Shown: positions 3,484-20,979 of the stretch, piece by piece | Position numbering within the stretch: the first letter of the stretch is position 1 | Layout: the number at the start of each line of letters is the position of its first letter | NCBI GenBank assembly: GCA_026388345.1 | Contig: JAPLJY010000114.1 | Span: 1 to 20,979 of the forward strand | Direction of reading: 5' to 3' | From: Deltaproteobacteria bacterium | GTDB taxonomy: Bacteria > Desulfobacterota > Syntrophia > Syntrophales > UBA5619 | DNA: 20,979 nt | Position numbers and translations under genes: made by a program | Notes under the pieces: model-generated | What the model was told of the DNA's origin: nothing | The model's database searches: none | Seen by the model: the letters and a program-made list of their open reading frames with translations, nothing else

Positions 3484-3523
3484 TACGGACGTACAATTGC
3501 GATAGGAGCAGAGAGAATTGACT

Positions 3524-6500
3524 ATGGCAGAGATATCCGCGTACCTACTCGCAGAAGCCCGCCGCCGCGCCGATGAAGATTTCGGACCTGATCCCGCGCC
3601 GGCGGCGGATGCTAAAAAATCCGCGGCGAAAACGACAGACCGGCAGCCAACCAGCTATCTGCTTGCAGAAGCCAGACGCCGAGCCGATGAAGATTTCGGT
3701 CCTGATCCCGCGGCCAAAAAACCAGCGCCACCCCGCGGCGTGTTTGCCGAGTCGGCATCCGCCCTGGGGGCCGGTATCGTCTCCACCGCGGAGTCAATGG
3801 GTGCTACCGCCGAGATGATCGGAATCCCGGGCGGGAAGGCCGTGCGGGAGAAAATGAAGGAAGTCGGCGAGTCCGACATGCTGCGCCGGCCGGACTACCT
3901 GCAGAACGTGGACATATGGAAACAGCCGGGCGTGATGACCGACTGGCGCTGGTGGGTTCGCTCACTGGGAGAGAATGCCCCCAACATGGCCACCATGATG
4001 CTGCCCGGTGTGGCGGCGATCCGCGCGGCGCGCGCGGCAGATTTGGGAGTAAAGGCGATCCGCGCCGCGGGCCTCGCCGGATCCTGGACCGGATCGATGG
4101 CCCTGGAGGCGGGGAGCGCCTACGGCCAGGCGAAGGACGAGATGACCCAGGCCGGGACCCTCGATCCTGATTCGATCGAGAAGATCGCCACCCTCGAGGG
4201 CATCACTGCCGGCACGGTGAACTCACTCATAGAAATGCTTCCGTTTGACAATTTGTTTCTTAAACAGGCCGGCGCCGACCGTTTCGTAAAAAGGATTGTC
4301 CGCCAAACGCTCCTGGAAGGATCGACGGAAGGATTCCAGGAAGCGGTCAATATCTATGTTGAGAAACTCGGCCACAAACCGGACCAGAATCTCTCTGACA
4401 ATATCGGCCGGATCCTCGAATCGGGGATCATCGGCGGGATGATGGGCGGGATGGCCGGCGGTACGATCGGCACCGTTGAACATCGCCGAAACGTGCAGCA
4501 TTACAACGCGCTGGGCGATCAACTCGGGGTCAAGGATACGGTCTTTTCCCTCAAAGACGCGGGGATGCCCGATCAGGAGATCGCCAGGCTGGTAGACACC
4601 CGAATCAAGGATATCCGGACAAAAAATGACGAGACGCCGAAAGGGGCCGACTGGATCTCCGGTGGTGACGAAATCAAGGATGCCGCCCGAAAACTGGTGA
4701 TACCCGAAGTGGACTCAAAGGAGATGGTAGACTACCTTCTCTACGGGGCCGGGAAGTACACACCGCCGCCGGGTCTCTTCGGAAACACGACGACCAGGGC
4801 AAAGAGGGGCGTCCTGGGAATGTTCGGGATGAAGGAGAAGGTTCCCGTCGAAACGACCGCTGAGGGCGCGACGACGGAAACGACACAGAAAACGCCAACC
4901 GAACGCGGAACGGGCGATCTGACCGCCGGGCCGCAGGCGGTGAAGGATATCGGCCTTGCGGAACCACAGGCGACGGTGATCCAGGAGGAGAAGAAAAGCG
5001 AAACGCTGAAAAAAGGTCTTACCGCATATGAGGCAGCCATCGCCGGGATGACGGAGGAGGACCAGCAGCGCCTGGAGGAGGCCCGGCAGCAGGAACTGTT
5101 TATCAAAGAGCAGGAAGACCAACAGGCCGCGGCCGAAGAACAAGCACAGACTCAGGCCGCGATCATGCAGGCGGCGACGGAGAAGGACGCCGTTATTAAA
5201 GACGCGGCCGCGGGCGATCCCAAGAAACAGGAGATTGCCGCGGAGGTGATGGGACTTTCCGACCGGGTCGTGATTTCAGCCGTCCAACGAGACCTCGGCC
5301 TGAACGTCCGGCCGGCGGGGCAGGACCTCTACGAGATTGTTACCAAAAAGGGGGCGCAGCCGGTCCCGATCATGACGCTCCGGAAACTTTTGGCAGAAAA
5401 ATACGTGGCCGATTACGACGCGGATCAAATTGCACAGGCCGCGGCAGAGAAGAAGCGGCAAGATGATTTCGAAGCGGTGCGGAAACGGACCGAAGAGGCC
5501 AGAATCAAGAAGGAAAAGGAACTTTCCGTCCAGGTACTATCCATGGCGCGTGAGGGACTCCGGTATGGCCGGATGATCACCACACAGCAACTTGCCCTGT
5601 TGGAGGCCTCCCGGGACCAGCTCACACAGGAGGAGATCGCGCGCCTCGATGCGGGCCCAAATGTCGTCAAACCTTACTCCCCGCCCAAGTCGCTCAAGGT
5701 CCTGGGCGTCAGGGGAAGACCCGCGGCTGTCTCCCCGGTACAAGAAACTTCCAACGCGGAGGAAGCCGGGCAAGCTTCCGGGCGCACAGGGGAACAGCCC
5801 AGTACCCGAACGGCGCAAGTCGAAGCCGCAGCCGGTCTTCCGGAAGAGGCCGGTCGCCACCCCGCGCAAGATGCTGCCGATGAGGCCAAGGTCCGGGAAT
5901 ACGTTCTTGACGACCTCGCCTACCAACTGAAGGAGATCGGACCGACCGGATGGGTCGGAAACGAGGAAGGCGGGGGGAGACGGATCGCGGCCGGAGGCGC
6001 GATCTCCCGGACGGTGAAGACCTTCGGCAACCAGTCCACTACGCCGCTGCGCGACGAGAAGGGGAAACCCGTCACGCTGAAGCTCTCCAAAGCGTTCCTG
6101 GCGAACGTAATCGACAAGGCCCGGACGGGGAAACCTCTCACCGATCAGCAGCAGGCCGTCCATGACGTGATAATCCACGAGGCGAAAGACGAGGAGGCAT
6201 ACGCCTGGAAGATGGTTTCCGAAGAAGCGGATGCGATGGCGGGTTTCAATCCGGAGGAGTTTGCGGCAGAGGAACCCGCGACGGATTTCAACCCCGGCGA
6301 ATTTACAAATGAGGGGAAGGCAGCGCCTGCCACGGCCCAGGGGGAAGAAACGGCAGGTATGACGAAGGAAGAGACGGCCGCGGGGAAGATCGTTCAACCG
6401 GATGCAAATTCCGAGATTAACGCCGCGGCGAATGAAGCGGCCACGTCGCCGAAAAACAACATCCCCGAACCGACGCTGGCACAACAGGAGGCGGGGAATT

Positions 6501-9500
6501 TCAAGAAGGGCCATGTCAATTACCAGGGTCTTGACATATCCATCGAGTACCCGAAGGATTCCACCCGCAAGGGCGTGGATAAAAACGGCAACGCATGGGA
6601 AAGGGCCGTTGCCAGCCATTACGGTTATATCAAACGGACCACAGGGAAAGACGGCGAACACGTCGACGTATACCTCTCTCCAATTGCCGAACCCGAGAGC
6701 GACAAGGTCTTCGTCGTTGACCAAAAAGACGACAAAAGCGGAAAGTTTGACGAGCATAAGGTCATGCTCGGATTAAACACGGAGGAAGAGGCCCGGCAGG
6801 GCTACCTGGCCAATTACGACAAAACGGGTCCGGACCGGATCATGGGCATCACGGAAATGTCCGTTGATGATTTCAAGGCCTGGCTGAAAGACGGGGATCA
6901 AAAAAAACCCGCCGCGGAATGGCAGACAAAGAAAACTAAACATCCGTGGGAGATGACGCGGGAGCAATATGTTAATTCGGGAATGTACCCAGAAATTCCA
7001 GAAGGTCATCAAAGCAAAGCAGCAATCAAAGCAAATAATGAACAAAACCATAAGGAATTGGTTAGTCAGGCCCTCACCAAAGGCAAACCCGTTCCCCCCG
7101 AAGTCTTAAAGGACTACCCGGAACTCCAGAAATCGGCCCCGGCTCAAGGTGTCGCGATCCGTGAACCGTTTCCCGTGTATTCGGTAACAGAAAAAGGCTT
7201 GACAAGGTTCTCCCGTAAGGTTGATAATGAGAACCAAGGAGGGCTGTTTGATGAATTACCCGAAACCGGAGCCATGCGGGCTGAAAATATACCAGCCGCC
7301 AGTCCGGAAACCAATGGTGGACGGAAAATACCCGCACCCGGAGGAAAGCTGCTTCCTTACGGGACAAGAACAGGGACACTGCCTTCCGTCAAAAGCGAAC
7401 CCATTGGAACCTGGGAATCCTCCCGCGGAGCAATAAACAGCTTCGTGGATTTGGCGGTCATCGCCCGCGACAACATCGGGCGGGACGCCCGGGAAAGTTT
7501 GATCTCCGTCGTAACCGGCAAGGATGGAAAAATCCTTGCCGTCAACCAGCATACCATCGGGTCCCCAAATCAAAGTCAAGTCTACCCCTATGTCATTGCC
7601 GGCCAGATCCTGAATGTCCCCGGCGCTGTTCGTGCGTGGACGGTTCACAACCATCCGTCGGGCGAGGCGCAATTGTCGAAGCCGGACCTTGACATCAGCA
7701 CGTCCATTGCCGACCTGTTGGAAGGAACCGGTATAAAGGGCGAAAAAATCATGGCGGTCACGTCGGAAGAATATTCGTCCGGGGAAGGCGTTCTTCCGGT
7801 GCCGGCTAAAGAAAAAGCGATTCACTCAATCCCCGTTCTCGGGCGGAAATATGATCAAATACCGCAGAAATTGCAGTCCATCACAGGGCCGGATGAGTTC
7901 GAGGCATTCGGCCGCCTGCACCTGAAAAACGGCGGAATCGCCCTCTTCTCATCTCAGCGCCAGCCGGTTGCAGTAATAGAGGTCGAAGACTTTTCGAGAC
8001 TCCGGCCCCTCCATGCGGAGATCCTCCGCGAGGTAGAAAAAAGAAACGCCGTGGACTTTATGGTCTACGACGGAAAGAAGGTGCTGTCGGAAGCTGATGT
8101 CTCCAATCTGGTGGCCTTTGCAAAACAGACGGGTCTTGAATTCACGACGGTCTTCGACAAGGCGGGTGATCATTACAAAGCGATACAGGGACTTATCGAC
8201 AACGCCAAGGCCGGCCGCAGCAGCCAGAAAACCTTTTATTCGGTTGAGGAGAGAGATGCAATCGGACGCGATTCGGCGGCCTTTGCTGATCAGCTTGATG
8301 ACTTTGCGGCAGGCAAACTTCTCAATCGGCTTGAACCAATTACGATTGGAGAAACTCCTGTCGTTCTTGAAAAACTCGGCGCAGAACAACTTCCACTGGT
8401 CATTACACAGGGAACAGTTGAGAAGGCGACAACCGGGAAGCATGGCGTTTCGATTGAAACCCTCAAGCAGTTACCCGCTCATATTGCCGACCCCATCATG
8501 GTCTTCGATTCAGCCACAGAGGCCGATAGCCTCGTCGTTATGACGGAACTGAAACAGGATGGAAAGACCATAGTGGCCGCGATTCGACTGTCCAAAGAGG
8601 TGGGGCGCAATGTCGTCAATGACATTATCAGCGTCCACCCGAGAAACAGCGAATATCACTTCATAAATTGGATCAATCAGGGACTGCTGCGGTACATGAA
8701 CAAAAGCAAAAGCCGCGCTTGGAGCGTGACAAGCGGGCTACAATTGCCCGCAGTGAGAGGCTCCAAACTCGGCTCGACTAAAAAAATACTCTTCGATCAT
8801 GATCTTGTCAAGGAAAAATATTCGACTGAGCAGGGCAACGTCCCCGTCCCCACCCTCGCCGATGTCCAAACCATCTTTAAGGGCCAGGAGGTCATTCAGC
8901 CGGGCGGGCAGAACTCCCCGGTTTATGTTAAAACACAGGGCGGAAAGTATCTCACGGCGGAGACAGTGAAAGAAATCTCCCCGGATGCGGTAGACTTCGA
9001 ATATGCCCATGGGGAGAAGTTTGATTCGGGAACGATGCAGATCTCCGGGGCGTATGGCGACGGTGTCGCTCACCTTGTCCGAGGTGTCGCGGGAAAGTGG
9101 ACCCTTGCCCATGAATCCATGCACTTCCTGGAAGATGCCGGGATTCTTGACGGGACGGATGTTTCCACCCTGCAGGACCACATCCAGGAACTGGTCCGCG
9201 ACGGAAAGATCGAGACTGCCAACAAGAAGGATATCGGCGGCTCCGAGGACCGGGCCAACTTCCTGGCTGATGCACTGACGAAGGAAAAACCGCCGCAGGG
9301 ACTCGTCGGGAAAGTAATCACCCGTGTCCGTGAATTCCTTGACAATTTAATGGAAGCATTTGGCATCCGGACGGCCGGCACCGTGGTCCGCGATATCGAG
9401 ACGGGCAAGATATTCAATCGCGGCATTCCCGGAACGCGGGCATACGCGGCCAACCGGAGTTTGAAAAAGTCCCCGGTCCAGTACGCCCTGGCCGAAGACG

Positions 9501-12500
9501 CCCCCCGACGCCACGCCATCCCCGAGAAGGCCGGACGCATCATCGCATCTAACAATGATTTCAAAAAGCTGACCGCACACGCCGATTTTCCCGCCGCCAA
9601 GAAAGGCAACAAGGCCGCGGCCGTCCGGCTGGTCCAGGCGCTGGTCAAACCGGAAACGGTTGCGGAAGCCGAAAAGCGCTTCGGCGCCGGCGCGATCTAT
9701 GCAGCACCGCACGCCGCGGAGGCAACCGGCCGCAACGCCATTCCTGTAACGCTTGCGGAATATTACGCAGCAAAAACGGATGGCACCGCGGATTCAAATA
9801 TCGTCCAGTCCGTCCGCGCTTTTCATACCGGCGCGAAAGCCATGGACCGCCTGATCTCCCGCGTTCGCTTCTCCGGAGACGTCGTGAAAGACGGCCGGTA
9901 TGTGCTCGTCGATGATGTGACCACCATGGGCGGCACCCTGGCCGAGCTGGCGAACCACATCCAGGAAGGGGGCGGAAAGGTGGAGGGCGTCATTGCCTTG
10001 ACAAACGCCTCCCGCTCTGCTACCCTGGCCGCCAGCAAACAGGTCACCAGCGAAATCGAAAGGAGATTCGGAAATGACGTCAGAGAACTCTTTAAAATCG
10101 AACCAACCGCCCTCACCGCAGCCGAAGCCGGATACCTCATCGGTCTCCGAGATGCTGACACCCTTCGAAATCGAGCAGCTGCGGCAAAACAAGAAAGAAG
10201 TGAGCGATTACGCGCAAAAGGCATTCGCACATCTCCGCCCGAAAAAGTAGCTACCCCTCCTACATCCGAGAAAGCAGCGCCGCCTGCTACGACACCCGAG
10301 AAAGTAACCCCGCCTGACAAAACCATTGCCAAGAACGCCTGGACCGGCCGTGTGGTCCAACCCGCGGGCCGTGCCATCAACCGCGGCCTGCAGATGATGA
10401 TCGGCAAGGTTGATCCGGCCTATCAGACGGCGATCCGGCGATTTGCCAATCAGTTTCGGGAATTCTGGTCGCCGGCGGCAACCCTTCCCAGCGGTGAAAA
10501 ATGGCTTGCTGAAAGGGCTCGCGGCATGGGCAATGTCGCAAAAGCGCTCCAGTTCATTGAACAATTGCACGGAAAACTGAATCTCCTCCCAGCCTATATC
10601 AAGAAAACGATGTTCCAGGTGCTGGATGGACAGGTCCCCGTTGAGACCCTACCGACGACCTTCACAATCCAAAAGAAGGAAAGGGGCCGCATTGTGACCG
10701 AGGAGATGAAACCGCAGGACCTGGCGCGGATGATTCGCCGCCGATCGGATGTCATCGGCCAGATGATGGTGGACCGCGGGATTCTTACCGAGAAGCAATT
10801 CAAGGCCAACGAGGGGAGTTACATCCACTACGCCTATGCCTATTATGTGCTGGGAGAGGACGCGGCGATTGCCGTGACAAGCACGGGGAAACTCGATCTT
10901 AAAGAAACGATGCACCGGAACCCGAATTTGACAATGGAGCAGCGCTACGCCCTGGGGCTCATCGATGATGCATCGATAGCCGTGCCCCTGGGAATGGGGA
11001 AGGCGCTTACCGATATCGCCAAATGGGATTACCTAAACAATATTGCAAAGAATCCCGATTGGGTATGGCAAAATTCCCTCGTCAAGGTGCCCGTCGGCGT
11101 GCCTCTAAAAAAGGACCAGTCCGGTCGCACCCGGCGCTTGGTCAATATGACCGTCGGTAGTTTGACCGAAACGATCAAAAAATATGAAGAGATGAACCGG
11201 GTTCAACCGACGCCGGAGGTGCAGGAACAACTTCGGATCTACAAGGAGGCGTTGGCTAAGGTCGAGGAGGCGTTAAAAAATATACCCGAGGGGTATAAAC
11301 AACTGCCCCAGGGCAAGAATTACGGTCCCCTCGCCGGCGCGTATGTCCGGGAAACGATCTACAACGACATCGTGCCCGTCCTTGGCCAACTCAACGCGGA
11401 CATGGGGAAGGCCATGCGGACTTTTCTCGAACTTGAGGCAAAAGCCGTCTCCGCGTTCAAATTCGGGAAGGTCGCCGTTAATTTCCCCACGGCATTCCGC
11501 AACATGGTGTCCAACTTCATCCAGATCAACATGAGCGGCCGCCCTTTCTACAAAATACCCGGCGACGTCATCTCCGCCGCCGAATCCATGCGCGCGAAAG
11601 ATGTCTATTACGAAGAGGCGTTCGGCATGGGAATCTTCCATACCAACTGGTTTTTGACCGAAATCAACGACGTCCTTAACGAATTCCGGAAGGCGCAAGG
11701 CGGCGGCATCGACAAGTTTTTCATAGCCGTAAAAAATCTCGGGAAATACTACGGAAAGATTGACGATATCAGCAAGTTTGCAATCTTCCTGCAACAGAGG
11801 AAAGAAGGTAAATCCATCGACGAATCCGCCGTCCACGCTTTGAAGTGGGGCATGGATTACTCCCTGGCGTCACGCTCGATCAAGGCGGCCCGGCGGCATC
11901 TCATTCCTTTTGCCTCGTACAATTACAAGATCGCGCCCTTGATCGCAGAATCCCTGCGCGACCGCCCCTGGGTTTTGGCAAAGTACGCGATGCTGCTCCC
12001 GCTTGCACTGAAAATGTTAGCCAAGAACTATAATGACCTTGACGATGAAGACATGAAGGATCTTGAAAAGCAACTGCCCGCCTACACCAAGAAGTCCGGA
12101 TCAATGATGATCCTTCCATTCAAGACGGACAAAGGGCAGTATCAATGGCTTAACGCCGAATACTTCCTGCCCTGGGGCAACTGGTTTAACATTTTCAGGG
12201 ACATGAAAGATAAGGACGTCGGCGAACTCACCCGCGATGTCGGAATCACCCACCCACTTTTGGATATCATGACCATGTTCCGCAGCGCCAGGGACGGATC
12301 ACCGCCGATGCATCCTTTCTTCGGCAAACCAATATACAATGAGTTGGATCATCCGGCAATGAAGATTGCTAAAATGGCTCATCAATTGGCCTTCACATTC
12401 CTTCCCTCGATGATCTCGCCTATCGAAGGCGCCTTAGGTTATACCATCGACGCGGTAAGAGGCAAGGAGGACCGCTGGGGCCGGGAGGTAACACCCGCCC

Positions 12501-13072
12501 AGGCGGCCGGACGGTGGCTGGGCTTCAACGTCGTTTCCGTATCACCGGAACAGTCCGCGGCGATCGCCGGCGTCCGGATTCAGGAGCTGAAGAAAGAATT
12601 CTCCAGGATGGATGCCGACCCCTCCATTTCGGATGAACGCAAAGCCGCAGCGAAGGAGAGGATGCAGGAAAGTATAGCCGGTTACGCCTGGGAGAACCCC
12701 ACCAGCGTTCTGCCGATCCAAAAAAAGAAAGGCAACGATCCCGTCTTTACCGCCCTGGTCGAGATGGTCAAAAAGGGTATCCTTAAGACCGGACCTCCCG
12801 GTCGCTCCATCGAGATCGCCGGAACGCCCTACAAAATGACCCTGGATCAACAGCGGGAATATTTCGACAAATCGAGCGAGATCGCCCACCGCAAACTGGA
12901 AGGCCTGGTCACCTCGCCTGCCTGGACGACAATGCCCGACAAACGAAAAACAGAGGTGGTTTCCCACATCATGGAAAACGCCAGGAAAGGGGTCCGCCAG
13001 AAGATCAAAGGGGAGATCGCCCGGACGAACCGAGAGAAACTGGCGGCGTCAAGTTCCGCCACAGGAGAATAA
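3524..13072 (+). CDS. Giant polyvalent phage protein: pyrophosphatase, JAB, MuF-C-like, metallopeptidase, PRTase and LPD38-like domains
   Basis: The product is 3182 residues from the ATG at 3524. An in-frame TTG at 3518 has AGGAG nine bases upstream and could be the true start. Segments in order: duplicated motif (7-25, 45-63); Gly/Ala hydrophobic helices (about 80-320, including GGMMGGMAGG); coiled coil (about 500-570); inorganic-pyrophosphatase-like domain (about 990-1123); a linker with GKPVPPEVL (about 1140-1204); RadC-type JAB domain (1304-1420) with JAMM residues H1375, H1377, S1385 and D1388; MuF-C/PBECR-like domain (about 1640-1757); HESMH zincin motif (H1863, H1867); phosphoribosyltransferase with YVLVDDVTTMGGT from residue 2126; a Pro/Thr/Lys linker; and a 900-residue LPD38-like C-terminus. 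Such proteins are known from phages and conjugative elements and are thought to be delivered with the DNA to counter host defences. Virion location is inferred. Confidence 0.9.
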   Translation: MAEISAYLLAEARRRADEDFGPDPAPAADAKKSAAKTTDRQPTSYLLAEARRRADEDFGPDPAAKKPAPPRGVFAESASALGAGIVSTAESMGATAEMIGIPGGKAVREKMKEVGESDMLRRPDYLQNVDIWKQPGVMTDWRWWVRSLGENAPNMATMMLPGVAAIRAARAADLGVKAIRAAGLAGSWTGSMALEAGSAYGQAKDEMTQAGTLDPDSIEKIATLEGITAGTVNSLIEMLPFDNLFLKQAGADRFVKRIVRQTLLEGSTEGFQEAVNIYVEKLGHKPDQNLSDNIGRILESGIIGGMMGGMAGGTIGTVEHRRNVQHYNALGDQLGVKDTVFSLKDAGMPDQEIARLVDTRIKDIRTKNDETPKGADWISGGDEIKDAARKLVIPEVDSKEMVDYLLYGAGKYTPPPGLFGNTTTRAKRGVLGMFGMKEKVPVETTAEGATTETTQKTPTERGTGDLTAGPQAVKDIGLAEPQATVIQEEKKSETLKKGLTAYEAAIAGMTEEDQQRLEEARQQELFIKEQEDQQAAAEEQAQTQAAIMQAATEKDAVIKDAAAGDPKKQEIAAEVMGLSDRVVISAVQRDLGLNVRPAGQDLYEIVTKKGAQPVPIMTLRKLLAEKYVADYDADQIAQAAAEKKRQDDFEAVRKRTEEARIKKEKELSVQVLSMAREGLRYGRMITTQQLALLEASRDQLTQEEIARLDAGPNVVKPYSPPKSLKVLGVRGRPAAVSPVQETSNAEEAGQASGRTGEQPSTRTAQVEAAAGLPEEAGRHPAQDAADEAKVREYVLDDLAYQLKEIGPTGWVGNEEGGGRRIAAGGAISRTVKTFGNQSTTPLRDEKGKPVTLKLSKAFLANVIDKARTGKPLTDQQQAVHDVIIHEAKDEEAYAWKMVSEEADAMAGFNPEEFAAEEPATDFNPGEFTNEGKAAPATAQGEETAGMTKEETAAGKIVQPDANSEINAAANEAATSPKNNIPEPTLAQQEAGNFKKGHVNYQGLDISIEYPKDSTRKGVDKNGNAWERAVASHYGYIKRTTGKDGEHVDVYLSPIAEPESDKVFVVDQKDDKSGKFDEHKVMLGLNTEEEARQGYLANYDKTGPDRIMGITEMSVDDFKAWLKDGDQKKPAAEWQTKKTKHPWEMTREQYVNSGMYPEIPEGHQSKAAIKANNEQNHKELVSQALTKGKPVPPEVLKDYPELQKSAPAQGVAIREPFPVYSVTEKGLTRFSRKVDNENQGGLFDELPETGAMRAENIPAASPETNGGRKIPAPGGKLLPYGTRTGTLPSVKSEPIGTWESSRGAINSFVDLAVIARDNIGRDARESLISVVTGKDGKILAVNQHTIGSPNQSQVYPYVIAGQILNVPGAVRAWTVHNHPSGEAQLSKPDLDISTSIADLLEGTGIKGEKIMAVTSEEYSSGEGVLPVPAKEKAIHSIPVLGRKYDQIPQKLQSITGPDEFEAFGRLHLKNGGIALFSSQRQPVAVIEVEDFSRLRPLHAEILREVEKRNAVDFMVYDGKKVLSEADVSNLVAFAKQTGLEFTTVFDKAGDHYKAIQGLIDNAKAGRSSQKTFYSVEERDAIGRDSAAFADQLDDFAAGKLLNRLEPITIGETPVVLEKLGAEQLPLVITQGTVEKATTGKHGVSIETLKQLPAHIADPIMVFDSATEADSLVVMTELKQDGKTIVAAIRLSKEVGRNVVNDIISVHPRNSEYHFINWINQGLLRYMNKSKSRAWSVTSGLQLPAVRGSKLGSTKKILFDHDLVKEKYSTEQGNVPVPTLADVQTIFKGQEVIQPGGQNSPVYVKTQGGKYLTAETVKEISPDAVDFEYAHGEKFDSGTMQISGAYGDGVAHLVRGVAGKWTLAHESMHFLEDAGILDGTDVSTLQDHIQELVRDGKIETANKKDIGGSEDRANFLADALTKEKPPQGLVGKVITRVREFLDNLMEAFGIRTAGTVVRDIETGKIFNRGIPGTRAYAANRSLKKSPVQYALAEDAPRRHAIPEKAGRIIASNNDFKKLTAHADFPAAKKGNKAAAVRLVQALVKPETVAEAEKRFGAGAIYAAPHAAEATGRNAIPVTLAEYYAAKTDGTADSNIVQSVRAFHTGAKAMDRLISRVRFSGDVVKDGRYVLVDDVTTMGGTLAELANHIQEGGGKVEGVIALTNASRSATLAASKQVTSEIERRFGNDVRELFKIEPTALTAAEAGYLIGLRDADTLRNRAAAAKQERSERLRAKGIRTSPPEKVATPPTSEKAAPPATTPEKVTPPDKTIAKNAWTGRVVQPAGRAINRGLQMMIGKVDPAYQTAIRRFANQFREFWSPAATLPSGEKWLAERARGMGNVAKALQFIEQLHGKLNLLPAYIKKTMFQVLDGQVPVETLPTTFTIQKKERGRIVTEEMKPQDLARMIRRRSDVIGQMMVDRGILTEKQFKANEGSYIHYAYAYYVLGEDAAIAVTSTGKLDLKETMHRNPNLTMEQRYALGLIDDASIAVPLGMGKALTDIAKWDYLNNIAKNPDWVWQNSLVKVPVGVPLKKDQSGRTRRLVNMTVGSLTETIKKYEEMNRVQPTPEVQEQLRIYKEALAKVEEALKNIPEGYKQLPQGKNYGPLAGAYVRETIYNDIVPVLGQLNADMGKAMRTFLELEAKAVSAFKFGKVAVNFPTAFRNMVSNFIQINMSGRPFYKIPGDVISAAESMRAKDVYYEEAFGMGIFHTNWFLTEINDVLNEFRKAQGGGIDKFFIAVKNLGKYYGKIDDISKFAIFLQQRKEGKSIDESAVHALKWGMDYSLASRSIKAARRHLIPFASYNYKIAPLIAESLRDRPWVLAKYAMLLPLALKMLAKNYNDLDDEDMKDLEKQLPAYTKKSGSMMILPFKTDKGQYQWLNAEYFLPWGNWFNIFRDMKDKDVGELTRDVGITHPLLDIMTMFRSARDGSPPMHPFFGKPIYNELDHPAMKIAKMAHQLAFTFLPSMISPIEGALGYTIDAVRGKEDRWGREVTPAQAAGRWLGFNVVSVSPEQSAAIAGVRIQELKKEFSRMDADPSISDERKAAAKERMQESIAGYAWENPTSVLPIQKKKGNDPVFTALVEMVKKGILKTGPPGRSIEIAGTPYKMTLDQQREYFDKSSEIAHRKLEGLVTSPAWTTMPDKRKTEVVSHIMENARKGVRQKIKGEIARTNREKLAASSSATGE
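3542..3712 (+). repeat. Duplicated 19-codon N-terminal motif in the giant protein
   Basis: Codons at 3542-3598 and 3656-3712 both encode the 19-residue YLLAEARRRADEDFGPDPA without any amino-acid difference, yet the DNA copies differ at seven positions, all synonymous. The 19 residues between them are Ala/Lys/Thr-rich and unrelated. Silent divergence with an unchanged peptide indicates an old duplication kept by selection on the protein. Confidence 0.9.
7251..7436 (+). CDS. Possible nested out-of-frame ORF (61 codons)
   Basis: An ATG at 7251 is preceded by AAGGAGGG with 7-base spacing and opens a 61-codon frame, +1 relative to the giant gene, ending at 7436. It lies in a low-complexity linker of the giant protein just before the JAB domain. 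The predicted peptide is Pro/Lys/Gly-rich with two Cys and matches nothing I recognise. The ribosome site coincides with codons for QGG of the main frame, so it may be chance. Reported mainly because the signal is strong; probably not a gene. Confidence 0.2.
   Translation: MNYPKPEPCGLKIYQPPVRKPMVDGKYPHPEESCFLTGQEQGHCLPSKANPLEPGNPPAEQ
10074..10250 (+). CDS. Nested 58-residue ORF overlapping the end of the phosphoribosyltransferase segment
   Basis: ATG at 10074 follows AAAGGAG with 8-base spacing, a better start signal than many annotated genes have. The frame differs from that of the giant gene and runs to TAG at 10250. The 58-residue product has a Ser/Pro/Gln-rich start and then a credible charged amphipathic segment (LTPFEIEQLRQNKKEVSD, then a basic end). 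That looks like a natural small protein rather than a random shadow. It begins inside the codons for the C-terminal helix of the PRTase segment and ends in the Pro/Thr linker. A likely reading is that the PRTase domain was captured together with the overlapping downstream gene of its former operon. Whether it is still translated is unknown. Confidence 0.45.
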   Translation: MTSENSLKSNQPPSPQPKPDTSSVSEMLTPFEIEQLRQNKKEVSDYAQKAFAHLRPKK

Positions 13073-14647: not shown

Positions 14648-14872
14648 ATGTCGGACTACTTTTACAAGGTCATCGTAGAACCGCAGCCGGAAGGCGGATT
14701 CACCGCGTATGTTCCCGGCCTTCCGGGCTGCGTCTCTGAAGGAGAGACTTACCGTGAAGCCCTGGACAACATCCGGGAAGCGATGGAACTTTACCTGGAA
14801 GCCAAACGGGAACGAGGCGGGGAAATCCTAACCGATACCACCCACATCGCCGAGATGTGCGTCAGCCTGTGA
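14648..14872 (+). CDS. hicB: HicB-family antitoxin
   Basis: The 74-residue product starts at ATG 14648 with GGAGG about nine bases upstream. Nearly the whole protein is the HicB-like RNase-H-fold domain: YKVIVEPQPEGGFTAYVPGL, then PGC, an acidic SEGETYREAL helix start and the AMELYLE helix. The family binds and neutralises the HicA RNase. This copy lacks the C-terminal ribbon-helix-helix or HTH extension of longer HicB proteins, so DNA-binding autoregulation through that domain is not expected. It precedes and overlaps hicA by four bases (GTGA), the antitoxin-first order. In a prophage such a pair would favour maintenance or act in phage exclusion. Confidence 0.88.
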   Translation: MSDYFYKVIVEPQPEGGFTAYVPGLPGCVSEGETYREALDNIREAMELYLEAKRERGGEILTDTTHIAEMCVSL

Positions 14873-15090
14873 GCGGTATCCTTCCGTCCCTGACACCCAA
14901 AGAAGCGGCCGCCGCCCTCGAACGGATGGGCTTCCGGCTTTTCCGGCAGCGGGGAAGCCATAGGATTTACGTCAAGGAGGATCTGCAAGTCATCGTTCCA
15001 TTCCATTCCAAAGACCTCAAGAAGGGCACGCTGCACCAGATCGTCAAGGGCTCCGGCGTCTCTGTCGAAGAATTTCTGAAGCACCTGTAA
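14869..15090 (+). CDS. hicA: HicA-family mRNA interferase toxin
   Basis: The frame is open from further upstream, but the GTG at 14869 overlapping the hicB stop (GTGA) gives 73 residues, the usual HicA length, and implies coupled translation. A second GTG at 14857 is the alternative. The double-stranded-RNA-binding-like fold is recognisable: an N-terminal helix (PKEAAAALERMGF), the strand with the catalytic His in RQRGSHRIY (H31), then IVPFHSKDLKKGTLHQIVK and the final helix. HicA cleaves mRNA independently of the ribosome and is held inactive by HicB. All expected motifs are intact, so the toxin appears functional. Confidence 0.88.
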   Translation: MSGILPSLTPKEAAAALERMGFRLFRQRGSHRIYVKEDLQVIVPFHSKDLKKGTLHQIVKGSGVSVEEFLKHL

Positions 15091-15515: not shown

Positions 15516-15659
15516 ATGCCAAGCGGTTTTCCGCACCCGTCAGCAGCGGTTTTTTTGTGTAACCTGCATGCAGACATAAAAAGCGCCGACAAGGCGGGTC
15601 AACGAGGGCCGAATAGAACACCCGCAAGGGGAATAAGCCCCGCCGTCTTGGCACGGTAG
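15516..15659 (+). CDS. Ash/Icd-like short phage ORF leading the antirepressor
   Basis: ATG 15516 has GGAGG ten bases upstream and encodes 47 residues. The frame is open further left but without a ribosome site. The sequence PHPSAAVFLCNLHA in the middle and the ending RGISPAVLAR resemble the short proteins annotated as Ash family (phage P4 type) or Icd-like cell-division inhibitors in enterobacterial prophages; I recall these as often sitting just before P22-type antirepressors. The stop codon lies inside the 5' arm of a long hairpin that reaches the ribosome site of the next gene, so the ORF may act as a leader peptide controlling it. Whether the peptide has its own function cannot be told from sequence. 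Confidence 0.5.
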   Translation: MPSGFPHPSAAVFLCNLHADIKSADKAGQRGPNRTPARGISPAVLAR

Positions 15660-15707
15660 TTGAGACCCGCCGCCTTCAATAACGCGGCGCAACTACTAAA
15701 TGCCAAG
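15647..15707 (+). promoter_or_regulatory. Long leader hairpin partly covering the antirepressor ribosome site
   Basis: Three stacked stems can form: CTTGGCA (15647-15653) with TGCCAAG (15701-15707), GTAGTTG (15656-15662) with CAACTAC (15690-15696), and CGCCGC (15668-15673) with GCGGCG (15684-15689), giving 20 Watson-Crick pairs with one small internal loop, one 5-base bulge and a 10-base apical loop. The outer stem takes up the first three bases of the AAGGAGG ribosome site (15705-15711). The 5' arms overlap the Ash-like ORF stop (15657-15659), so a terminating ribosome would open them. A small GGGG/CCCC hairpin (15628-15641) lies just upstream. Confidence 0.65.
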
Positions 15708-15716
15708 GAGGCCAAC

Positions 15717-16991
15717 ATGTCTGCAACAAAGCAATACCCAGTCGTACCCGCGTCCGTGTCATTCCACCAAAACACCCTTTTAACCGCCGAGGTAAACGGC
15801 ATCCAGTACGCCGCCATGAAACCCATCGTCGAAGGCATGGGCATAGACTGGCGCGGTCAACAGGCGAAAATTAGGAAATCAAAGAGGTTTGACGATATCT
15901 CCATACCTTTGCAAACCACCGGCGGCATACAGGAAATGGTTTGCATGCCCATTACAAAGCTTAACGGCTGGCTTTTCTCCGTCAACTCCGACAAGGTGAA
16001 ACCGGAGATCCGGGAGAAGATCCACCAGTACCAGGAGGAGTGCTTCGTCGTCCTCCACGATTACTGGCACAAAGGGGCGGCCGTCAACGACCGGGCAACC
16101 ATCGAATCCACCCAGACTGACCCCGCCCGCCTGGCCGAATCGCTGATGCAGGCCCTGATCGCGTCGCTGTCAGGCCTGCATAATGACAAGATCGATGATC
16201 TGGGCATGGAGATCGTTACCCGCCTCCGGGACCTCGCCGAGCAGATCTCCGACGTGCGGGGCCGGGAAGATCTGCTTCCCGCGCTGGAAGTCTTAAACGG
16301 CAACGTCTCGAACATGCGAAGGCAATTGGTCAACATGCTCCCGAAAATGTCAATACCGGCGGACCTGGTGAACGACCTTCGCACGGTCGCCGAGCGTCTG
16401 ACTGCCATCGCCGATCAGCAGGACAATGCGAACTTTGCCTTTCACGAACGGCTCCGCGCGATGGAAATGCGGTATCGGGGCATCGAACTGAACCAAACGG
16501 CAAAACAGATCGGCGGGCAACCCGGCGTCATGGATTACGTGGAAGGGAATGTGCCGGAATCGCTTCGCCACACGTTCAACATGATGAGGATCCCCAAGGC
16601 CGCCGGAAGGACCATGCTTCTTCGGTTCATGAACGAATGCCTGATTCCGGACCCGGACTCCCGGGTCGAGACGAACAGACTGTACCCCGTTTATTGCGCC
16701 TGGTGCTTCGCCAACATGAATTCCCCGGTTCCCATTACCTCCTATCGGAAACTTCTCAAGGAATACATTTCCAATTTTGACGGTATGTCGCTCAAAATGG
16801 ATAATTACGTGCAGTATCTGACTGGGGGAAAAGTCCGGATTCCCAAGGAGATCGACCGGACAACCGAGTCCCAGGATAAACTCCCCGCCGAGACGATCGT
16901 CGCGCCGCCAGCCGAACCGCCGGCTGAACCGCAACCGCGGAAATTCGCGGGTTTAACCTCCCGGTTTTTCGGCAGAAAGGAGGGGGAATAA
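15717..16991 (+). CDS. ant: P22-type phage antirepressor (P22_AR_N) with C-terminal winged-helix-like region
   Basis: ATG 15717 has AAGGAGG 5 bases upstream; 424 residues. Residues about 14-122 match the P22 antirepressor N-terminal domain: strand and helix around YAAMKPIVEGMGIDWRGQ, a conserved LNGWLFSVNSDKVKPEIREK segment and YQEECFVVLHDYW. Proteins of this kind bind and inactivate phage repressors, favouring lytic growth. The middle (about 150-260) is helical and probably oligomeric. Residues about 273-375 (LYPVYCAWCFANMNSPVPIT and the following helix) look like the winged-helix module at the C-terminus of phage D5-type primase-helicases, suggesting DNA binding. The tail is Pro/Glu-rich. 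The gene is preceded by an Ash-like ORF and a hairpin that may control translation; the next gene starts two bases after its stop. Confidence 0.85.
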   Translation: MSATKQYPVVPASVSFHQNTLLTAEVNGIQYAAMKPIVEGMGIDWRGQQAKIRKSKRFDDISIPLQTTGGIQEMVCMPITKLNGWLFSVNSDKVKPEIREKIHQYQEECFVVLHDYWHKGAAVNDRATIESTQTDPARLAESLMQALIASLSGLHNDKIDDLGMEIVTRLRDLAEQISDVRGREDLLPALEVLNGNVSNMRRQLVNMLPKMSIPADLVNDLRTVAERLTAIADQQDNANFAFHERLRAMEMRYRGIELNQTAKQIGGQPGVMDYVEGNVPESLRHTFNMMRIPKAAGRTMLLRFMNECLIPDPDSRVETNRLYPVYCAWCFANMNSPVPITSYRKLLKEYISNFDGMSLKMDNYVQYLTGGKVRIPKEIDRTTESQDKLPAETIVAPPAEPPAEPQPRKFAGLTSRFFGRKEGE

Positions 16992-19296: not shown

Positions 19297-19602
19297 ATGA
19301 AAGGGTATCCCAAAGTAATTGCAACAAAAGCGGATTTTGATTTTCTACTGGCCGATCCGGAATTCAAGGACCGGGCTCTCGCAGATCTGAAAACGGTTGC
19401 GGACCTGGCCGACGACACAATGGAGAGGGTCGTCAGCTATGACCTGGACGTCGCCGGGAAAATGATCAATATCGTCACGGAAACTGTCCCGGCGCCCTTG
19501 CCCACATGGAAACGGTTGGGATTTGCATCGGGCGAAAATACGGCGGATCTTTACGCGGTTAATGCGCCCGTCGTCATAGAAACGACGAAAGGGGGTAATT
19601 GA
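19297..19602 (+). CDS. Small acidic protein directly before the DGR target gene
   Basis: The 101-residue product starts at ATG 19297 with AGGAGG upstream. It has an acidic helical first half (ADFDFLLADPEFKDRALADL) and a strand-rich second half. Its stop is two bases before the ATG of the variable-protein gene, so the two are translated together. It has the size of a tail-fibre assembly chaperone or small baseplate protein; no family is recognised. Confidence 0.7.
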   Translation: MKGYPKVIATKADFDFLLADPEFKDRALADLKTVADLADDTMERVVSYDLDVAGKMINIVTETVPAPLPTWKRLGFASGENTADLYAVNAPVVIETTKGGN

Positions 19603-19604
19603 TT

Positions 19605-20684
19605 ATGGCAAACCGGCAAGTCACATTGGATGTTTCCGACAACATCATCGCCGCCGCGGTCATGGCCCAGAACTTCTGGGCGCTGAAGAATCTACGGCTT
19701 ATCGAGCCGCACGCCGCCGGCGACAACACGCGGGTGGTTGTAAATCCAGCCGCAAATTATGTCCCGATCGACATCGGCGGGCATTGGTTTTTGATGGATG
19801 AGGCTGTGGATGTGGACTCGGTGGACGATCTGGACACCGGGACGCTGGCGGCGGGAACGGATTATTACGTCTACGCCTGCACGAACGGATCGACGCTGTC
19901 ATTCAAGGTTTCGGCCAACGCAACCGTCCCCACCGGATTCGACGCGGCTCATTCCCGCAAGATCGGAGGATTTCACACGCTGTGCACGGCAGTCGGGACG
20001 ATCGGCGGGCATACGCTCACCGGTTACGCGCAAAAAGACATCCTGCCCGCATCCGTGTGGTGCCTGAAGCACCGGGCGAAAACGTTGGTCAACGTTGGCC
20101 TGGTCTATGACAGCGGGATTCAGAAGTGGGTGGATATCTACCTGCAATCCGGAACAGCGACGGGCACCACCTCCGTCAACGGTGGAACCATCACCGACAC
20201 CCGAACATGGATGGACCACGTGGATGATGGCCATGCCGTGGGGAAACGGCTGCCGATCGACCATGAATTCCAGTCGTTTGCCGCAGGATCCAATGAGGAG
20301 ACCAATATCACCGGGTCCGCCGATCCAGGGACCACCGGCGGCCATTCCGATACCGCCGGACGGAGGATGATCTCCAACATCGGCTGCGAGGATTGCTGCG
20401 GGGCGATGAGTCAATGGTTGCAGGATGAGGCTTACATATACTCAGGCGCCACCGGATATTATGGGAACCTGCCCGGAGGAAAAGGATCGGTTTACACAAA
20501 TTTCACCAGTGATCCTGGTGCACCAGAAATGGATAATGCTGATGCAGGCAGTGACACCAAGCTGATCGCCGGCGGCGATTGGGCCCATGCTGCGTTTTGC
20601 GGCTCTCGCTATCGTGCTGCGAATTACTATCGCTGGAATGCGGATACGGCTATCGGCGCGCGCTTCGTCTCGGAGCCACTGTAG
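19605..20684 (+). CDS. DGR variable protein, receptor-binding-like with C-terminal C-type-lectin fold
   Basis: ATG 19605 has AAAGGGGG nine bases upstream; a TTG at 19599 overlaps the previous stop and is less likely. The product is 359 residues. Residues 1-200 are strand-rich and probably attach to the virion. Residues about 215-359 carry the hallmarks of DGR target domains of C-type-lectin (formylglycine-enzyme-like) fold: NIGCEDCCGAMSQWLQD, LPGGKG, AGGDW, CGSRYR, YYRWN and a final IGARFVSE. Residues 319-357 are encoded by the variable repeat. Compared with the template, D325, A327, H328, F331, A338, D347 and A349 replace N, N, N, I, N, N and N. In Bordetella phage BPP-1 the equivalent protein determines host tropism; the same role here is inferred. 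Confidence 0.9.
   Translation: MANRQVTLDVSDNIIAAAVMAQNFWALKNLRLIEPHAAGDNTRVVVNPAANYVPIDIGGHWFLMDEAVDVDSVDDLDTGTLAAGTDYYVYACTNGSTLSFKVSANATVPTGFDAAHSRKIGGFHTLCTAVGTIGGHTLTGYAQKDILPASVWCLKHRAKTLVNVGLVYDSGIQKWVDIYLQSGTATGTTSVNGGTITDTRTWMDHVDDGHAVGKRLPIDHEFQSFAAGSNEETNITGSADPGTTGGHSDTAGRRMISNIGCEDCCGAMSQWLQDEAYIYSGATGYYGNLPGGKGSVYTNFTSDPGAPEMDNADAGSDTKLIAGGDWAHAAFCGSRYRAANYYRWNADTAIGARFVSEPL
20560..20674 (+). repeat. DGR variable repeat (VR)
   Basis: 115 bp aligned to the TR without gaps. Ten differences: TR adenine becomes G at five sites, C at four and T at one; no other base changes. All seven affected codons are AAT, AAC or ATT in the TR and six of the seven are Asn codons, so changes fall at first and second codon positions. 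The last 21 bases before the final adenine contain no adenine and are identical in both copies, as expected of the initiation-of-mutagenic-homing (IMH) end. Confidence 0.95.
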
Positions 20685-20708
20685 CCGGATAGCGTAGAAA
20701 ACGGAAAA

Positions 20709-20731
20709 CGTCGCCGATTTTTTCGGCGACG
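20709..20731 (+). promoter_or_regulatory. Hairpin downstream of VR
   Basis: CGTCGCCGA (20709-20717) is followed by five T and its perfect complement TCGGCGACG (20723-20731). It lies 34 bp after the VR and 25 bp after the stop codon. In BPP-1 a hairpin or cruciform of similar size just after the IMH is needed for efficient target recognition. No T-run follows, so it is not a standard terminator. Confidence 0.7.
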
Positions 20732-20772
20732 ACGGTGTGGTGAGGGGTTACAGGCCATGAAGTCATTGTCGT

Positions 20773-20887
20773 AGCTGATCGCCGGCGGCAATTGGAACAA
20801 TGCTGCGATTTGCGGCTCTCGCTATCGTAATGCGAATTACTATCGCTGGAATGCGAATACGAATATCGGCGCGCGCTTCGTCTCGGA
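20773..20887 (+). repeat. DGR template repeat (TR)
   Basis: 115 bp, 213 bp downstream of the VR, same orientation. It contains 25 adenines, eight of the codons being AAT or AAC in the VR register, which is typical of templates designed for adenine mutagenesis. It has no start codon or ribosome site in the VR frame and stops (TAG 20770-20772, TGA 20903-20905) flank it, so it is not translated. It would be transcribed as part of the template RNA for the reverse transcriptase. Confidence 0.93.
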
Positions 20888-20928
20888 TACAGGATTGCAA
20901 TTTTGAGCGAAACTCCTGGCTGGATTTC

Positions 20929-20979
20929 ATGGCCTTGTCTCCGGATGATCCGGAGGCAAAACACATAGCGGAGGTCGCG
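20929..20979 (+). CDS. Possible 5' end of an ORF running off the window
   Basis: After the TR, only one plus-strand frame stays open to the right edge. It contains ATG 20929 (MALSPDDPEAKHIAEV) but is also open further left through the TR and has no convincing ribosome site. It does not visibly resemble a DGR reverse transcriptase start. It could be an accessory gene, an early part of the reverse transcriptase, or chance. Confidence 0.25.
   Translation, partial: MALSPDDPEAKHIAEVA

Follow-up and report, generated by a model that had tools for sequence, protein, structure and literature searches.

A tailed-virus diversity-generating retroelement with an Mtd-type target, very probably truncated by the end of its contig

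The right edge of contig JAPLJY010000114.1 very probably carries part of a tailed-virus diversity-generating retroelement (DGR), namely the target gene, the template repeat (TR) and the beginning of the template-RNA spacer; the reverse transcriptase (RT) of this element would have been lost to an assembly break. The stretch analysed (the window; 20,979 nt of Deltaproteobacteria bacterium assembly GCA_026388345.1) appears to be the whole contig and stops 92 nt past the TR. The DGR put forward in the original prediction is supported by a variable repeat (VR) that differs from the TR at adenines only, by a target of the Mtd family, by variation in relatives at TR-adenine codons, and by a truncated template-RNA element after the TR (Table 1). 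Counting against it are the absence of an RT from the window, the decay of cassettes within the group, a hairpin loop that is not GRNA, and the low model confidence of the VR part. The window element is a DGR of a known kind, while the part worth a bench test is the reading of its relatives as Avd-free elements with an OB-like protein. By analogy with these relatives and with BPP-1, from which the presence of an RT, retrohoming and a role in attachment are carried over, a transcript of TR and spacer would serve as template for a DGR reverse transcriptase prone to misincorporation at adenines. The resulting cDNA would replace the VR and change residues of the Mtd-type receptor-binding protein, and these changed residues would alter the range of virus attachment.

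Table 1. Features of the putative DGR and of the gene upstream of it, in window positions
Feature	Position	Strand	Basis or description
Small gene, 101 aa, directly upstream of target	19297..19602	+	Cluster C1
Target gene, predicted Mtd-type receptor-binding tail protein	19605..20684	+	359 aa from ATG; Pfam, PHROG, PDB sequence and fold matches
Variable repeat (VR)	20560..20674	+	3′ end of target gene; alignment to TR, codon-wise variation in relatives
IMH-like VR 3′ end	20652..20674	+	G+C-rich, adenine-free; homology stops at GGA, then GCC
Inverted repeat 3′ of VR	20709..20731	+	9-bp stem, loop TTTTT; starts 34 nt after VR
Template repeat (TR)	20773..20887	+	Outside any gene; alignment to VR
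IMH*-like TR 3′ end	20865..20887	+	TACAGG next, in place of GCC
Start of template-RNA spacer	20879..20979	+	TR end plus 92 nt, cut by contig end; model positions 1-91 of 135

The VR/TR pair

Upon realignment, the VR and TR match exactly as originally described, over 115 bp without gaps and at an offset of 213. All ten mismatches fall at TR adenines, which occupy 25 of the 115 positions (hypergeometric P = 4.4e-8), and they comprise five A>G, four A>C and one A>T changes. The original count of seven residue changes is likewise correct, since seven target codons are altered (N>D, N>A, N>H, I>F, N>A, N>D and N>A); six of these are AAY in the TR, which holds eight AAN codons. Similarity stops abruptly at both ends of the repeats, beyond which the flanks are unrelated, and the 98 nt separating VR from TR contain no gene. 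The TR itself is non-genic, with an in-frame TAG at its 5′ edge. A chance origin of the adenine-only differences is excluded at 4e-8, and the lack of non-adenine differences agrees with the recent homing originally proposed, to which no date is attached.

At their 3′ ends the repeats display a conserved switch, GGA followed by GCC in the VR and by TACAGG in the TR; TACAGG follows the TR in 38 of 77 loci and TCCAGG in 11 of 77. The name IMH for the VR end is borrowed from BPP-1 by analogy. When this sequence is shuffled 100 times, no shuffle yields a stem as long as the 9 bp of the inverted repeat downstream of the VR. A stem of at least 6 bp follows the VR in only 26 of 77 loci, 16 of them at no more than 5% of shuffles, so the group does not have it throughout.

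Target protein and upstream neighbour

The target protein matches Pfam mtd_2nd (5.9e-25) and the tail protein family PHROG 11262 (3.3e-57), and aligns by sequence with the PDB Mtd chains of Bordetella phage (4.7e-13), which its model also matches in Foldseek (E 1.8e-15, TM 0.63). The open reading frame opens at a TTG at 19599, and the tabulated gene holds if the start is the ATG. The model reaches a mean pLDDT of 72.6, with the VR part at 54-59 in most blocks and at 83 in the last block, and an FGE-sulfatase match at the C-terminus falls below its cut-off. The proposal of a C-type-lectin-type variable C-terminus is thus borne out by Mtd homology in both sequence and fold, with the lectin-type part modelled at low confidence. 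The product of the small upstream gene has no match in Pfam or PHROG; at many related loci its relatives (cluster C1, 30 loci, duplicates included) are neighbours of either the cassette or the target gene.

Related loci and variation among target relatives

Related loci, designated by L numbers, were gathered through the target protein (32 in viral contigs and 2 in genome contigs), through the spacer pattern (22), and through an RT alignment search (80 taken of 389 matches). A VR/TR pair is present in 77 of the 78 distinct loci scanned (window and ANMV-1 included, 22 near-duplicates dropped), that is, in 76 of the 77 others, and the only miss, L070, has just 361 bases upstream of its RT. Over the 77 loci there are 1349 mismatches, of which 19 lie off a TR adenine, a count that is a lower bound because the multi-locus scan penalised non-adenine mismatches, a bias that does not affect the window alignment; 59 pairs have no off-adenine mismatch. 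The available portion of PMC8144416 distinguishes six DGR clades and describes mismatches as overwhelmingly at adenine. The ten changes in the window compare with a mean of 17.5 across loci. The closest related locus, L002 (81% over residues 1-285), has TR, spacer and RT. Among 11 aligned RTs of related loci, the motif IGNYTSQ occurs in 10, with IGNLTSI in L032, and YCDD occurs in all 11.

The target has 2251 homologues, 120 of them listed, and the window's own protein was aligned with 46 others picked from the near full-length ones, codons being classed by the window's TR rather than by the relatives' own TRs. Relative to the four closest listed relatives (83-86% identity), differences occupy 53 of 60 cells at VR codons whose first or second base is a TR adenine, against 4 of 88 at VR codons lacking a TR adenine (Fisher P 2e-27), and 165 of 1288 cells outside the VR. 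Compared among themselves, the same four relatives differ in 74/90 TR-adenine, 11/132 adenine-free and 265/1932 outside cells; for all 46 aligned relatives against the window, the corresponding values are 555/690, 182/1012 and 4655/14125. At the level of sequence comparison, this concentration of close relatives' variation at TR-adenine codons supports a DGR.

Template-RNA spacer and position of the RT

The 92 nt after the TR (20888-20979), of which the original prediction made no use, align to the spacer of related loci and, judged from this alignment, belong to the putative DGR element. Measured in 12 relatives, the distance from the TR to the RT start is 113-150 nt in 10, and in the other two the start pattern is unmatched. 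Since the RT of related loci begins at this distance, the contig ends 92 nt after the TR and the spacer is truncated, the RT gene probably starts about 21-58 nt past position 20979, in sequence missing from the assembly. Searches turned up no contig that overlaps this one, and the contig end has no exact match among viral contigs.

Structurally, the spacer alignment (47 sequences, window included) carries 25 base pairs, 17 of which show changes on both sides; such cells number 218 against 66.6 in shuffles, and 93.9% of cells are paired against 75.8%. On each of the five measures used, all 500 shuffles score lower. Sliding the structure by 1-3 columns leaves 30-52% of cells paired, a contrast inflated by the derivation of the structure from the same alignment. 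A covariance model built from 42 sequences with the window left out, and searched over 26 sources with 7 matches, recovers the window at 71.7 bits (E 8e-17), the match being truncated at its 3′ side by the contig end. The model also recovers RT-bearing loci outside the training set (L009 at 77.6, L037 at 60.2 and L032 at 47.9 bits) and, with lower scores, YPCBV-1 (28.9), ANMV-1 (19.4) and the RT-less locus L008 (17.7), with no match in BPP-1 or in 18 of the 19 RT-less loci searched. A covarying template-RNA model therefore recognises such elements even when the RT is cut off.

Three RT queries give no match over the 21 kb of the window, as would be expected if an RT encoded at another site in the virus or host acted in trans, or if the pair had a different origin, for example duplication followed by adenine-biased change. 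Both alternatives are highly improbable: the RT of related loci directly follows the same spacer, the window spacer reaches the contig end, and the adenine pattern is not a product of chance. An RT situated in cis, just beyond the assembly break, is the favoured placement.

Cassette loss among related loci

Within the sequence covered, 24 Mtd loci lack an RT, window included, and 13 of these have at least 1 kb past the target match (L005, L006, L008, L010-L013, L017, L025, L027, L030, L033 and L036; the list includes near-copies, for example L010 and L011). Derivatives of this kind raise the prospect that the window holds a dying DGR, in which TR and spacer survive, a deletion or replacement has removed the RT just past the contig end, and the VR is frozen. 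In L008, for instance, the RT is absent, the TR is complete and the spacer survives as a weakly matching remnant. L033 and L028, which share a sample number, are 99.97% identical across 11,659 bases, after which L033 continues without TR and RT. Inside the TR remains of L033 (11661-12265), L017 (5699-6485) and L025 (11544-12330) lies a gene for an HNH endonuclease (PHROGs 3377 and 374); L028:11661-13229 is the counterpart of the L033 stretch, and relatives carry TR and RT there. The window departs from these loci in two respects that make a dying DGR improbable: its spacer is intact so far, matching model positions 1-91 where the RT-less loci yield the single L008 remnant and 18 yield none, and its VR is free of non-adenine drift. 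A cassette interrupted by the assembly break is accordingly retained as the preferred reading of the window. A recurrent swap of a DGR cassette for a homing-type endonuclease would itself be worth study.

A small gene after the RT in related loci

According to the available portion of PMC10053308, Avd is essential and present in most DGRs, with HRDC and MSL as other accessories; the accessible text of PMC12875486 describes a spacer that folds and recruits the RT-Avd complex, with Avd inactivation lowering activity to about 1e-9. Among related loci, bAvd (PF22296) is matched in 0 of 66 records, mostly fragments (0 of 15, 0 of 50, and ANMV-1). In the first set of 17 records it is found in two, both Avd-type controls (BPP-1 and YPCBV-1), and in further phage records it is found in 5 of 9, ANMV-1 being among the four without it. 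Avd queries give no match in the window, which extends as far as position 20979.

Where the sequence continues for at least 450 nt past the RT, a gene of about 97 residues follows it in 97 of 101 loci (not deduplicated), the exceptions being BPP-1, L064 (broken), and L066 and L067 (not found). It accompanies 50 of 52 distinct RTs (85% identity), sits at the RT stop codon and has at least 60 homologues, and no named family was found for it. Its product is modelled at pLDDT 90.6 with an OB-like fold that gives middling Z values against known OB domains. Eight members have predicted pI values from 5.6 to 9.0, compared with 9.6 for the Avd of BPP-1, so that the family is not uniformly basic. In a midpoint-rooted RT tree, the 52 RTs of related loci and one crAss-like phage RT group together at 100/100, apart from seven Avd-type RTs; the long-branched ANMV-1 RT is placed with the Avd-type RTs (89/86), outside the group of related loci.

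Tentatively, the window element may belong to a broad Avd-free group of DGRs in viruses of bacteria and probably also of archaea, in which the predicted OB-like protein at the RT stop is a candidate for the job of Avd, either by tethering the RT to its template RNA or through the handling of single-stranded cDNA. The place of ANMV-1 on the RT tree slightly weakens this reading and also argues against a single origin of ANMV-1 and the related loci despite the small gene of ANMV-1. Followed outward, the window thus yields evidence for a whole group without an accessory that is essential in BPP-1, together with a candidate substitute. If the OB-like protein does replace Avd, two unrelated solutions could be compared to test what an accessory protein adds to mutagenic retrohoming.

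The small gene, or part of it, also occurs apart from the cassette: it persists at 10840-11127 in both L010 and L011, where RT and TR are gone, and at 11078-11281 in L008, where the RT is gone. In the crAss-like phage cr55_1 (L137:3726-4061), a small gene unlike this one overlaps the RT at its downstream side; it belongs to PHROG 11557, a family annotated as of unknown function, and the record has no bAvd match.

Other features of the window

Further upstream, a single open reading frame of 3184 residues (3518-13072) encodes inorganic-pyrophosphatase-like, MuF C-terminal and RadC-like domains. A HicB-like antitoxin and HicA toxin pair (14648-15090) is followed by a P22_AR-type antirepressor (15660-16991), and positions 15593-15679 match the Rfam family sRNA-Xcc1 (RF02221) at 61.6 bits against a gathering score of 53.

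Comparison with known systems

The mtd-avd-TR-brt element of BPP-1 resembles the window in its Mtd-family target with the Mtd fold, in a VR at the 3′ end of the target gene, in a downstream TR and in adenine-only differences. Both also have an inverted repeat after the VR and a structured spacer between TR and RT, the spacer role being described in the excerpts of PMC12875486; in the available part of PMC3240598, a hairpin or cruciform follows the VR, and avd or HRDC serve as accessory loci. Unlike the window, where 98 nt without a gene separate VR and TR, BPP-1 carries avd in the interval from mtd to the TR, and its stem loop is GRNA rather than TTTTT. The BPP-1 spacer is unmatched by the RNA model, and its target is about 28% identical to that of the window.

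Chromohalobacter phage YPCBV-1 has a target partly similar to that of the window (35% over 42% of the query), together with a TR and an RT. Its spacer match to the RNA model indicates an RNA fold partly common to an Avd-bearing DGR; unlike related loci, it has avd, and its record extends only 109 nt past the RT.

The archaeal virus ANMV-1 (KP703175.1; PMC4372165) resembles the related loci in having an Mtd-like target, adtA, a TR right after the VR, an RT and then a small gene. This small gene is annotated as hypothetical and is 50.5% identical to that of L003; as in related loci, the 38-kb record has no bAvd match, and the RNA model matches it weakly. Unlike theirs, its RT groups with Avd-type RTs, so that a common lineage is not established. 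A legend in the accessible part of PMC4372165 labels an Avd, and Nanoarchaeota ORFs are so marked there by size and charge. An annotated 64-residue hypothetical between target and RT (L136:2708-2902) overlaps the TR (2693-2805); it reads as a translation of the TR and may not be a gene.

Caudoviricetes sp. vir525 (BK063673.1, listed host Methanosarcinales) is a different virus with a target 44% identical over residues 43-359, and its circular 60-kb record, without bAvd, has the TR-RT-small gene arrangement of the related loci.
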